A stretch of 50,835 nucleotides of DNA from the NCBI GenBank assembly GCA_018716115.1, contig DVKF01000038.1, positions 1 to 50,835 on the forward strand, in the 5' to 3' direction. Positions 7,025-50,683 of the stretch are shown here, piece after piece; the first letter of the stretch is position 1, and every line of letters begins with the position of its first letter. The notes beneath the pieces are model-generated. The model searched no databases, was not told the DNA's origin, and saw only the letters and a list, made by a program, of their open reading frames with translations. The translations under genes and the position numbers were made by a program. The stretch comes from Candidatus Alloscybalousia intestinigallinarum (GTDB lineage Bacteria > Bacillota_I > Bacilli_A > RF39 > UBA660).

Positions 7025-8956
7025 CTACTCAAAAAAGAATTCAATACTTCCTTTTTCCTTTCCATCATAAACAACTTCCGCAATTGCCCCATTGACAAAA
7101 GTCATTCTAGGCGGAATATGTCCAACATCAATATCCCACAACACAGGAACATTTAACTCCTGTAAAACTTCTTCCAAAGCCTGTTCGAAAGATATCTGAT
7201 AATAACTTCTATTCGTCATCGTTCTTCCAAACAAAATAGCTCTAGTTTCTTTAAACCACCCTGCTTCTTTCAACTGCCATAACGCTCGAATTAAGGATTC
7301 GCTAGAAAGTTCACAGTTATCAAAATACCAAATAATGCCATCCTCATAGAAATCACGCAAAAATTCTTCAACATAATCAAAGCGAGTACCTATCATAGAA
7401 ACTAGCACATCTAAACAGCCGCCTAATAATCGTCCTCGTACCTTAACTGGTTGATTTTTAAATAACCTCTTCCAAACAACTGGAGTATCTAAAACATAAT
7501 TACCGGGCACCAAAGGATCTTCACAACAACCACTATCATACAAAGTAAAACTTTTCTGAATCATCTTTTCTCCTTTTAGTATAGCCAAATTATTCACTAA
7601 AGATTCATGCCAATCTTCCATGCCAAAAGCCATAAAATTATTGGCGTATAAAGTAGCTATTCGAAATTTAGTCGTCAAATAAAATAGTATTCCAGTAGGA
7701 TCAGAGTATCCTTGTACCCACTTAGTAAATTTAGCTAATACTTTATCATCTAAATAAGATAACATTTCTAACAAGAAATCTCCACCAGCCACACAGAAAA
7801 TAGCTTTAACTTTTTCGTTCTCCCACATACTCATAAATTCTTTAGTCTGAATAGGACTAGCACAACTTTTTCCCCTACCATCAGTAGAACGTACATGTTT
7901 TGCTTCTATTACCGAAAAATGTTGCTGCTTAAATTTTTGAATAGCACGATCCAAGCGAGTAATATCCTCTTTTACTGTAACACCATCAGAGGGAGCAACA
8001 ATTGCAATAGTATCTCCATCCCGAATAAACTCCGGATAATGTATAACACTACCTTTACTTGCTTCTTTAAGATTTTTTACTTGAGTAACTAAAGTATTGG
8101 GATTGTTTTTTTTGTCAGAAATAGCAACATTATCTTTAGTAGTTACACCTGTAGCTACTTGTTCTAATTTCCGACTAAAGCCTTGATTCTCTTTCTGAGG
8201 TAAAAAGCATTCGATTCCTATTGGACAATGATCACTCCCATAAACATCGGCATAAATCATCGTATCTGTTACCTGATGAATAAAACGCTTAGAAACCAAA
8301 AAATAGTCAATCCGCCAACCAATATTCCGCTCGCGACAATTCCCAATATAACTCCACCATGTATAGGCACCTGTTAACTCAGGATGATAATACCTAAAAC
8401 TGTCGATAAAATTACAATCTGCCAACAACTGACCAAAATTCTCTCTTTCCTGATCGGTAAAACCAGCATTCCCGCGATTAGCTTTTGCATTACAAATGTC
8501 GATTTCTTGATAGGCAACATTAAAATCACCACAAACAACGACTGGTTTTCTTTGATCTAATTTTTTTAAATACTCACGAACCAACTGTTCCCAAAGTAAT
8601 CTTTCGTCCATTCTTTCTAGCGTACGCTTAACATTAGGAACATAAAAATTAACTAAAAAGAATTGATTAAATTCTAATGTTATCGCCCGCCCCTCTGAGT
8701 CAAAAATGGAATTTCCTATTCCATAAGTCACTTGTATCGGCTCAATTTTCGTATAAATTAATGTGCCCGAATACCCCTTACGATCAGCAGCATTTAAATA
8801 TTCATGCCACCCTTCCGGATGAAAATCGTACTGATCGATAGTTGCCTTCACTTCCTGTAAACAATAAACATCTGCATCCTCACGGTAGAAAAAATCGGCA
8901 AATCCTTTTTTCAAGCAAGCTCGCAATCCGGCTACATTCCAAGAAATTATTTTCAT
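7025..8956 (-). CDS. Exonuclease III (AP endonuclease) fused to an S66 family LD-carboxypeptidase-like domain
   Basis: A single 643-codon reading frame joins two unrelated enzymes. Residues 1-253 are a complete exonuclease III/ExoA-type AP endonuclease: N7, E35 (QEVKA), D144/N146 (GDFN), the WRIDYF segment and D242/H243 (SDHCP). About 50 polar residues follow as a linker. Residues about 305-643 are a complete S66 serine peptidase of the LdcA/MccF family: the nucleophile elbow GYSDPT (S418), E549 and H613 (VGH) form the expected Ser-Glu-His triad. S66 enzymes cleave L,D-peptide bonds of murein peptides or inactivate microcin C-like compounds. There is an AAGGAGGG site before the ATG. It lies downstream of mutY and the NUDIX gene. 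Either the proteins are truly fused or a stop was lost; both sets of catalytic residues are intact. Confidence 0.88.
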   Translation of the reverse strand: MKIISWNVAGLRACLKKGFADFFYREDADVYCLQEVKATIDQYDFHPEGWHEYLNAADRKGYSGTLIYTKIEPIQVTYGIGNSIFDSEGRAITLEFNQFFLVNFYVPNVKRTLERMDERLLWEQLVREYLKKLDQRKPVVVCGDFNVAYQEIDICNAKANRGNAGFTDQERENFGQLLADCNFIDSFRYYHPELTGAYTWWSYIGNCRERNIGWRIDYFLVSKRFIHQVTDTMIYADVYGSDHCPIGIECFLPQKENQGFSRKLEQVATGVTTKDNVAISDKKNNPNTLVTQVKNLKEASKGSVIHYPEFIRDGDTIAIVAPSDGVTVKEDITRLDRAIQKFKQQHFSVIEAKHVRSTDGRGKSCASPIQTKEFMSMWENEKVKAIFCVAGGDFLLEMLSYLDDKVLAKFTKWVQGYSDPTGILFYLTTKFRIATLYANNFMAFGMEDWHESLVNNLAILKGEKMIQKSFTLYDSGCCEDPLVPGNYVLDTPVVWKRLFKNQPVKVRGRLLGGCLDVLVSMIGTRFDYVEEFLRDFYEDGIIWYFDNCELSSESLIRALWQLKEAGWFKETRAILFGRTMTNRSYYQISFEQALEEVLQELNVPVLWDIDVGHIPPRMTFVNGAIAEVVYDGKEKGSIEFFFE

Positions 8957-48668: not shown

Positions 48669-50621
48669 TTAACTAGTTAAATAAGTAACTACCGGATTAG
48701 TAAACCCCGTAATAGAATGACATTGTCCATACTGATGACCAGTATTGTATTTACAATAGCCGTAAAGATGATATTCAAAATAAACATAATCACCTTCTAT
48801 ATCCATAGTAAATAAATTCCAAGTACGATTCCCTGTTGAATTACTAATCGTATCTAACGTATTACCAGCAGCATCTTTTAAATAAATAACCTGCTGTGTG
48901 CTCACAATTTGTCCATAAGCTTCTTCAGATCGATAATTGTAAGTAATAGAAATAGTATTAGCAATACCTACACTACCATCTGGTTTTTTTAATAAATAAA
49001 TATTATCCGATTTACCATCATAAGTTAAAGTATCTACTTGACCAAATGGAGTATAAGAATCATTCTGATTAATATTTATACTAATAGGGCTTGAGCAAGA
49101 AATATTATAATTTTGCGTATTTCCACTATAGAGATTGTTAACAATTTCTGTTGTTGGAGAAGCTGTACCAGTAATTCCTAAAATTGTATTCCCTGCCATA
49201 ATTTTATCAGCTGTTAACCCAATCACTGAGGCAAGTGAGGAATATGATATGTATTTTTCAGATACATTAGTAAAATTACCATAACTTGCCGCAGGATAAT
49301 ATCCATAATCTGTTGCGAAATAAATACGATTATTGTAATGCCATGCGGTATCTCCTGTTACATTACTAGAAGAGGAGCGATTTGGCATATTACCAGTTAC
49401 TTTGCTTCCATTTACCCACGCTGTTTGTCCACTTAATATTTGAGAAGCTGTTGCCGTTCCTTGTGTCTGGCTAGCAAGCGATGCTGCTGTAATCTTTCCA
49501 CTTCCGTTATGATATCCTGCAGGGATGGTGTAACTTCCTCCCGCATTTAAAGTCTGGGTGACTGCTCCTCGATTAGGCATTGTTCCAGTTATCTTTTGCC
49601 CCTTTACCCAAGCAGTTTTTCCGGTTAAGATTTGACCTGCTGTCGCATCCCCATCTCCACTACTACATGCATAAATCGTCTGAATTGGATTCGCTGTGAT
49701 ATTTCCTAATTTATCTTTTACTTGAATTTCTGCATTCGTACTAATTGCATAGATCTTACTCGTATCTTTCACCCATGTTGCTCCACCATCAAATGAGTAT
49801 ATCGCATCTGCTTTATCGACTCCAATCCCGCTATCTGTAACATCGCTAATCCCCACTTCAATTTGGTTACCGTTAAGAATAGAGTGTTCATCACTTGTCA
49901 AAGTAAATTCCGGTCCTTTAGAATCTGCTCTTACGATATGATTATTCATATTACTTACATTGTTCGCTTGATCTACCGCTCTAACATAGATATTTCCATT
50001 ATAATTCTGATACTCTTGATTACTTGGATTTAGGGTTAGCCAATTTAAAAGATCCTTTGTATATTCATAGCGATCTATCTCAATACTATAAGGATTACTA
50101 CTACTATACGTTCCATAAACATATCTGGTCCAATCACCTTCATTGTAGCTTTGTGTATGGGTCGTATCTTCATATAGTTCATAGTTCACGACAAAGTTAC
50201 CACTAAATCCTTTACAATATAAAGGTAATCCCCCTTCTGCTTCATGGACAGTCTTCCCATTCTTATCCTTACAAGTTAAGTAAGCTTGATATTCATTTCC
50301 TTTTCCACTTGTATTATCAATAATAATATTTCCCGTACAAGAAATATCTTCTTCTTCGATTAATCCTTCATTCAAAAGTGTATCATAAGGGACATTAAAA
50401 CAATCACTACTAGCGTTAGTCATTTCTCCACGATAGTTCTTCACATACAACTTACTTGCTTCATAAGCTAACTTTTCTAAAGTCTGATACTTCTTTTCAC
50501 TATTTCCATAAGTTAGATTTCTAACAGCAGGTAAAGCAATTGCCATCAAGACACCTATCAATATGATAACTACTAACAATTCAATCAAAGTAAATCCTTT
50601 TCTTCCACTTCTCTTATTCAT
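48669..50621 (-). CDS. Giant type IV prepilin-like surface protein
   Basis: A 650-residue protein beginning with a class III prepilin signal: basic MNKRSGRKG, the cleavage G|FTLIE, and the long hydrophobic helix to about residue 35. After cleavage the N terminus would enter a pilus or pseudopilus, but the protein is far larger than usual pilins (about 150-200). Residues about 236-325 look like an Ig/cadherin-type or bacterial adhesin fold. Two copies of a tail-fibre-like repeat (about 326-352 and 389-415, ATAGQILTGKTAWVKGQKITG and TATASQILSGQTAWVNGSKVTG) are followed by a Gly/Asn/Ser-rich beta region. It may be a pilus-tip adhesin, which is inference. ATG at 50621 with GAGGAG 7 bases upstream; a start five codons earlier lies before that site. 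Its promoter carries a poly-G tract. Confidence 0.85.
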   Translation of the reverse strand: MNKRSGRKGFTLIELLVVIILIGVLMAIALPAVRNLTYGNSEKKYQTLEKLAYEASKLYVKNYRGEMTNASSDCFNVPYDTLLNEGLIEEEDISCTGNIIIDNTSGKGNEYQAYLTCKDKNGKTVHEAEGGLPLYCKGFSGNFVVNYELYEDTTHTQSYNEGDWTRYVYGTYSSSNPYSIEIDRYEYTKDLLNWLTLNPSNQEYQNYNGNIYVRAVDQANNVSNMNNHIVRADSKGPEFTLTSDEHSILNGNQIEVGISDVTDSGIGVDKADAIYSFDGGATWVKDTSKIYAISTNAEIQVKDKLGNITANPIQTIYACSSGDGDATAGQILTGKTAWVKGQKITGTMPNRGAVTQTLNAGGSYTIPAGYHNGSGKITAASLASQTQGTATASQILSGQTAWVNGSKVTGNMPNRSSSSNVTGDTAWHYNNRIYFATDYGYYPAASYGNFTNVSEKYISYSSLASVIGLTADKIMAGNTILGITGTASPTTEIVNNLYSGNTQNYNISCSSPISININQNDSYTPFGQVDTLTYDGKSDNIYLLKKPDGSVGIANTISITYNYRSEEAYGQIVSTQQVIYLKDAAGNTLDTISNSTGNRTWNLFTMDIEGDYVYFEYHLYGYCKYNTGHQYGQCHSITGFTNPVVTYLTS

Positions 50622-50652
50622 TTTACGGCTCCTCATATTCTTTTATATACTA

Positions 50653-50683
50653 AGTATACCCCCCCCCCAAGCCCTTTTGGCAA
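50653..50683 (-). promoter_or_regulatory. Prepilin gene promoter with a homopolymer spacer
   Basis: Minus-strand -35 TTGCCA (50678-50683) and -10 TATACT (50653-50658) are separated by 19 bp, of which ten next to the -10 box are a G-run. Changing the run from 10 to 8 G would give the optimal 17-bp spacing. Confidence 0.65.
50659..50668. repeat. Homopolymer tract of ten C (ten G on the minus strand)
   Basis: A run of ten C in an otherwise AT-rich genome, located inside the prepilin promoter spacer. The longest other C/G run noted in the window is seven (in the dinG ribosome binding site). Confidence 0.95.

Follow-up and report, generated by a model that had tools for sequence, protein, structure and literature searches.

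A G10 tract between the −35 and −10 boxes of a prepilin-like gene in Candidatus Alloscybalousia intestinigallinarum: a probable phase-variable promoter of a kind that recurs in its family

Does the run of ten guanines upstream of a prepilin-like gene in Candidatus Alloscybalousia intestinigallinarum belong to a promoter, and could changes in its length alter the expression of that gene? The window analysed here is the whole 50,835-nucleotide stretch of contig DVKF01000038.1 (assembly GCA_018716115.1). It has a GC content of 33.4%, and the G10 tract is its only run of G or C longer than 7, the next longest being 7. From base composition, 0.0014 runs of at least ten G or C are expected in the window and 0.04 in the 1.49-Mb genome, in which three runs of at least nine G were found. 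A preliminary description, made from the sequence of the window, had called the tract an outlier in AT-rich DNA, and these values bear it out.

On the minus strand, the −35-like hexamer TTGCCA (50683–50678) is followed by a nine-nucleotide non-repeat part of the spacer, AAAGGGCTT (50677–50669), by the G10 tract (50668–50659), which is the putative slippage site, and by the −10-like hexamer TATACT (50658–50653), 3′ of which the strand reads TAGTATATAAAAGAATATGAGGAGCCGTAAAATG. The distance between the two hexamers is exactly 19 bp, with the tract forming the −10-side end of the spacer; all the coordinates given for this arrangement in the preliminary description hold. A generic sigma-70 scan restricted to spacers of 16–18 bp did not list this promoter, as expected because its spacer is 19 bp long. 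A ribosome-binding site, GAGGAG (50634–50629, minus strand), is located seven bases upstream of the likely start codon, the ATG at 50621.

The gene that begins there (48669–50621, minus strand) encodes an exported protein of 650 aa; the ORF tool called the same gene as 48669–50636 (655 aa), from an upstream ATG at 50636. Its N-terminus contains a class III signal peptide and a pilin N-terminal helix, MNKRSGRKG/FTLIELLVVIILIGVLMAIALP (50523–50621, minus strand), matched by the Pfam profile PF07963 (N_methyl; E=5e-8, 32.6 bits against a cut-off of 21.2) and by TIGR02532 (E=1e-7, 31.5 bits against a cut-off of 16.3). These motifs support the label of prepilin-like surface protein, and with it a predicted surface product under the G-tract promoter, as the preliminary description had proposed for this 650-residue protein. 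Assembly and processing enzymes of the type IV (pseudo)pilin kind are encoded in the genome, with T2SSE ATPases on contigs C57 and C28 and a prepilin peptidase (Peptidase_A24) on C19. Pilin chains in the PDB match the N-terminal part alone of the protein, which at 650 aa greatly exceeds a major pilin in length, and its AlphaFold model (mean pLDDT of 31) is unusable for fold assignment. The repeat ILxGxTAWVxGxKxTGxMPNRG occurs twice in the protein, with a YTIPAGYHNGSGK linker (49368–49646, minus strand), and is also present in further surface genes from the genus. Relatives of the protein were found in 17 out of 17 genomes of the genus; their first ~380 residues are conserved, while the C-terminal third diverges between species, a pattern that suggests module exchange. 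Most of the nearby genes covered by a scan have housekeeping functions (PNPase, SMC, P-type ATPase and CTP synthase). Partial relatives of the prepilin-like gene were also detected at contig ends of the same genome (C36, C58, C59, C47, C4 and C45).

A second copy of the promoter is present in this genome. The run of at least nine G at C35:11080 lies inside a 47-bp block that is identical to the window promoter at 45 out of 47 positions, and this block sits upstream of another exported-protein ORF (MKKLELNFSKRNIAIFGLLV...), not of the prepilin-like gene. The 47-bp block had no match in the viral contigs scanned. Among promoters related to the C35 copy by a shared N-terminus or leader, the tract is G12 in G004 and, with an altered −10, G10 in G015; the G004 protein behind this promoter contains the TMxNRG/YTIPAGYHNGSGK repeat of the window protein. 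The third run (G9; C37:175–183, L038) falls in the apparent signal-peptide region of another exported protein, in a different frame from the 502 open codons that follow it. It is not claimed here as a switch because no start codon was found upstream of it, near the start of the contig.

The promoters of the prepilin-like relatives, whose spacers were counted by hand, retain both boxes, whereas the tract ranges from G7 to G12 or is absent. The −35 box recurs as TTGNNA, 17–20 bp from the −10, and TATACT is kept in the orthologues and in the tract-less paralogue. The orthologous promoters read TTGCAA-18-TATACT with G7 in G015 and TTGTCA-23-TATACT with G7 in G004, and the tract-less paralogue on C47 of the same genome reads TTGTTA-17-TATACT. 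The leader ending in ...GGAGCCGTAAAATG is common to the window gene, this paralogue and G004. Tract-less pilin promoters elsewhere have spacers of 18 bp (G001 and G011) or 17 bp (G009), so that 17–18 bp is the length in tract-less homologues. The retention of the hexamers, even next to a tract-less 17-bp spacer, supports their assignment as putative promoter boxes. The preliminary description had regarded 19 bp as longer than the ordinary spacing, and the 17-bp paralogue, with its identical −10 and near-identical leader, is in agreement. It had also named a fixed length among relatives as the observation that would speak against a switch; the lengths differ.

To place these promoters in a wider context, 17 genomes of the genus were searched for runs of at least nine and at least eight G, and the 73 runs with both flanks were analysed. 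Read on the G strand, 48 out of 73 runs of G≥8 had a −35 of the TTG type on one side and a −10 of the TATAAT type on the other. When the flanks were dinucleotide-shuffled 200 times, the mean count was 2.3 and the highest was 8; on the C strand, none of the 73 runs had this arrangement. The spacers measured 14 to 21 bp, with a mode at 17–19, and the tracts G8 to G13. In these promoters, the tract is always on the G strand and usually abuts the −10.

The design extends across the family. The exact string G7-TATAAT occurs at 295 sites (the sum of our own table) in 36 out of 291 family genomes, compared to 2 for the reversed pattern. In G174, a genome of ~1.3 Mb, 79 runs of G≥8 were found, many of them ~1.0–1.1 kb apart and many preceding tandem paralogous exported proteins of ~330 aa (VYAATIISSINVGYSNESSKLVADNVQ...; loci L217–L246, L258–L261 and L271–L290), and G148 contains 34 runs of G≥9 and 34 G7-TATAAT sites. 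All the genomes drawn at the order level belonged to this same family. In a sample of the class outside the family, 28 out of ~341 genomes contained G7-TATAAT, in lower counts; ten of these loci were inspected, of which at least seven show an upstream box of the TTGAC type, and the ORFs that follow mostly start with signal-peptide-like or lipoprotein-like N-termini. Among these other families, L352–L360 have G8–G11 abutting TATAAT and, in most cases, an upstream TTGAC; the genes behind them encode lipoprotein-like or other exported proteins.

The genes behind the tracts encode mainly surface-type proteins. A strongly hydrophobic N-terminus was detected in 131 out of 142 ORFs behind tracts, compared to 9 out of 32 ORFs taken from the window as controls. 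According to Pfam, example targets carry vWA, InlB-type repeat, SHIRT and BspA-type LRR domains, and nine of the ORFs behind tracts are prepilins. As exceptions, the same tract promoter precedes an ABC-transporter ATPase, not a surface protein, at L201 (G255) and L202 (G151).

Spacer length was then assessed in 174 promoter tracts, bearing in mind that promoters within one genome are non-independent and that the parser settles ties toward 18. The spacer was 19 bp long in 101 of them, 18 bp in 35 and 20 bp in 16. The length of the part preceding the tract and the number of G were anticorrelated (r=−0.54, against −0.32 for the most extreme of 10,000 permutations), that is, the spacing clusters at 18–19 bp while the two parts that compose it each vary. 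The commonest composition was ten bases plus G9 in G174, G134 and G361, nine plus G10 in the window, G148 and G225, eight plus G11 in G076, and seven plus G12 in G344 and G207. No motif is shared by the non-repeat parts beyond a frequently A-rich start.

We propose that positions 50653–50683 form a sigma-70-type promoter in which a slippage-prone G tract sets the −35/−10 spacing and makes the prepilin-like surface gene phase-variable, a reading that we hold to be very probable. Replication slippage would add or remove single G's in the tract and thereby shift the spacer within a range of about 17–20 bp, and the altered spacing between the two polymerase contacts would turn transcription of the gene up or down. 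What is observed are the boxes, the tract with its recurrence, its differing lengths in homologous promoters and the surface-type targets; slippage within a population, its consequence for transcription and the assignment of an ON length are inferred. If 17–18 bp is the active spacing here, the assembled 19-bp allele would probably be a low or OFF state. The tract-less homologues at 17–18 bp agree with this, as does a search for tract-less promoters, which gave a peak at 17 bp; this peak is weak and the counts are small, so the ordinary spacer optimum in these species is weakly established. Alternatively, these polymerases could have their active spacing at the modal 19 bp. The preliminary description had considered a phase-variable switch plausible, and the position of the tract within the spacer, far above chance in the genus and in the family, supports it.

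A different role for the tract would be that of a fixed promoter part, either a binding site for a regulator or sigma factor or a structural spacer, which does not switch and whose length differences reflect slow drift. Its invariable strand and usual contact with the −10 would fit such a role, as would the near-constant G9 of G174 (31 out of 33 parsed promoters, the remaining two being G8) and of G134 (11 out of 11), maintained despite differing neighbouring bases. A fast switch would be expected to produce more variation than this, unless variation is masked in the consensus or kept down by selection; the uniformity is still compatible with switching because a consensus assembly displays the majority allele only. 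Against a fixed part, tract lengths differ between near-identical promoters of the same genome: G10 in five and G11 in seven promoters of G076, G10 in four and G11 in three of G225, G8, G9, G9 and G10 in G361, G8, G9 and G9 in G367, and from G7 to G17 in G344, with differences within G011 too. With one genome per species, the variation seen is that between species and between paralogous promoters. Moreover, the non-repeat part of the spacer offers no common motif and compensates in length for the tract, and the tract-less paralogue has otherwise much the same promoter. We regard a fixed part as improbable.

Still less probable is that the G run acts as a recombination signal, like the G-quadruplex upstream of pilE, with the partial gene copies serving as donors for antigenic variation. 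The conserved N-terminal and species-specific C-terminal parts of the protein would suit this scheme, and so would the partial copies elsewhere in the genome (C36 at 89%, C58 at 84%, C59 at 60% and C47 at 94%). However, the pilE element is a pattern of four G runs, and upstream of the window gene we found one ten-G run only, with no guanine-quadruplex motif of several runs. The partial copies stop at contig ends, which indicates that they were cut by the assembly, and the copy on C47 possesses a promoter and a start codon of its own. Furthermore, hundreds of promoters, mostly those of unrelated genes, have the tract placed exactly within the spacer. This combination of a pilE/pilS quadruplex and silent cassettes was thus rejected. 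Finally, the tract could be an artefact of assembly or sequencing, or a chance G run beside a chance TATACT, which we consider the least credible of these alternatives. Homopolymer counts in assemblies are uncertain, the contig terminates 167 bp past the tract, and the other two runs of G≥9 also lie less than 200 bp from contig ends. Nevertheless, the reversed-pattern and C-strand controls are near zero, and the same layout recurs across many genera whose genomes were assembled independently. The preliminary description had allowed for an assembly artefact: the recurrence of the design makes this unlikely for the tract itself, while the exact count of ten is indeed uncertain, because all three runs are within 200 bp of contig ends. 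Proximity to contig ends (C12:50835, C35:11217 and C37:1 in this genome) was likewise observed for many tracts of relatives, and repeats or mixed tract lengths may be breaking the assembly near them.

Phase variation through the spacer, our preferred reading, has precedents in distant bacteria. In the promoter of porA of Neisseria meningitidis, a poly-G tract of 9–11 G between the −35 and −10 steps the expression of a surface protein through one-base changes, with 11G giving high surface levels, 10G about two-fold lower and 9G 13-fold lower (PMC3639595). The promoter of tp0126, an OmpW homologue of Treponema pallidum, also has a poly-G between its boxes, and its transcription was best at a 17-bp spacing, as reported in PMC7864442. 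The feature common to both, a homopolymer of at least eight within the spacer, is present in the window as G10 in 19 bp. By analogy, the two systems show that a poly-G spacer can work as a switch before a surface gene. They differ from ours in that porA is a single locus of a Gram-negative pathogen in which 11G is high, whereas here some species have many such promoters per genome with a modal spacer of 19 bp, known from sequence; tp0126 belongs to another phylum and another protein class. A gut commensal, Bifidobacterium breve, resembles the present case in having poly-G slippage at pilus genes: its sortase-pilus genes contain intragenic G-tracts for which deep sequencing revealed slippage mixtures in populations (PMC9187656). 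Unlike the window tract, those tracts are in the coding sequence and shift the reading frame, and promoter-spacer G-tracts are touched on in passing only (PMC9187656).

Literature searches for such switches in RF39, in Firmicutes promoter spacers or in MAGs of Bacilli, which covered subscription journals thinly, retrieved none. The mechanism is already known; its lineage and its scale in the family appear to be undescribed so far. The tandem surface-protein genes vlp of Mycoplasma hyorhinis each have their own homopolymer, a poly-A tract, near the promoter. G174 is similar in its tandem arrays with one tract per gene and differs in that its tracts are poly-G and in that the proteins are unrelated, with prepilin or signal-peptide N-termini; we take this likeness as a lead and not as a test. 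It is conceivable, at somewhat less than an even chance in our judgement, that poly-G spacers are a standard device throughout this family of genome-reduced, uncultured Bacilli, with up to ~79 tracts of G≥8 per genome, often before tandem paralogues, most of them held at 19 bp (OFF) and a few at 18 bp (ON), so that each cell would display a small random subset of its surface proteins. Our findings suggest that a large uncultured group diversifies its surface by the contingency-locus trick of human pathogens, in some species with dozens of such promoters per genome. The compensating lengths of the tract and of the part preceding it also provide a clean natural series of spacers. Elsewhere in the window, a 643-aa ORF (7025–8956, minus strand) fuses an endonuclease/exonuclease/phosphatase domain to an LD-carboxypeptidase (S66) domain.
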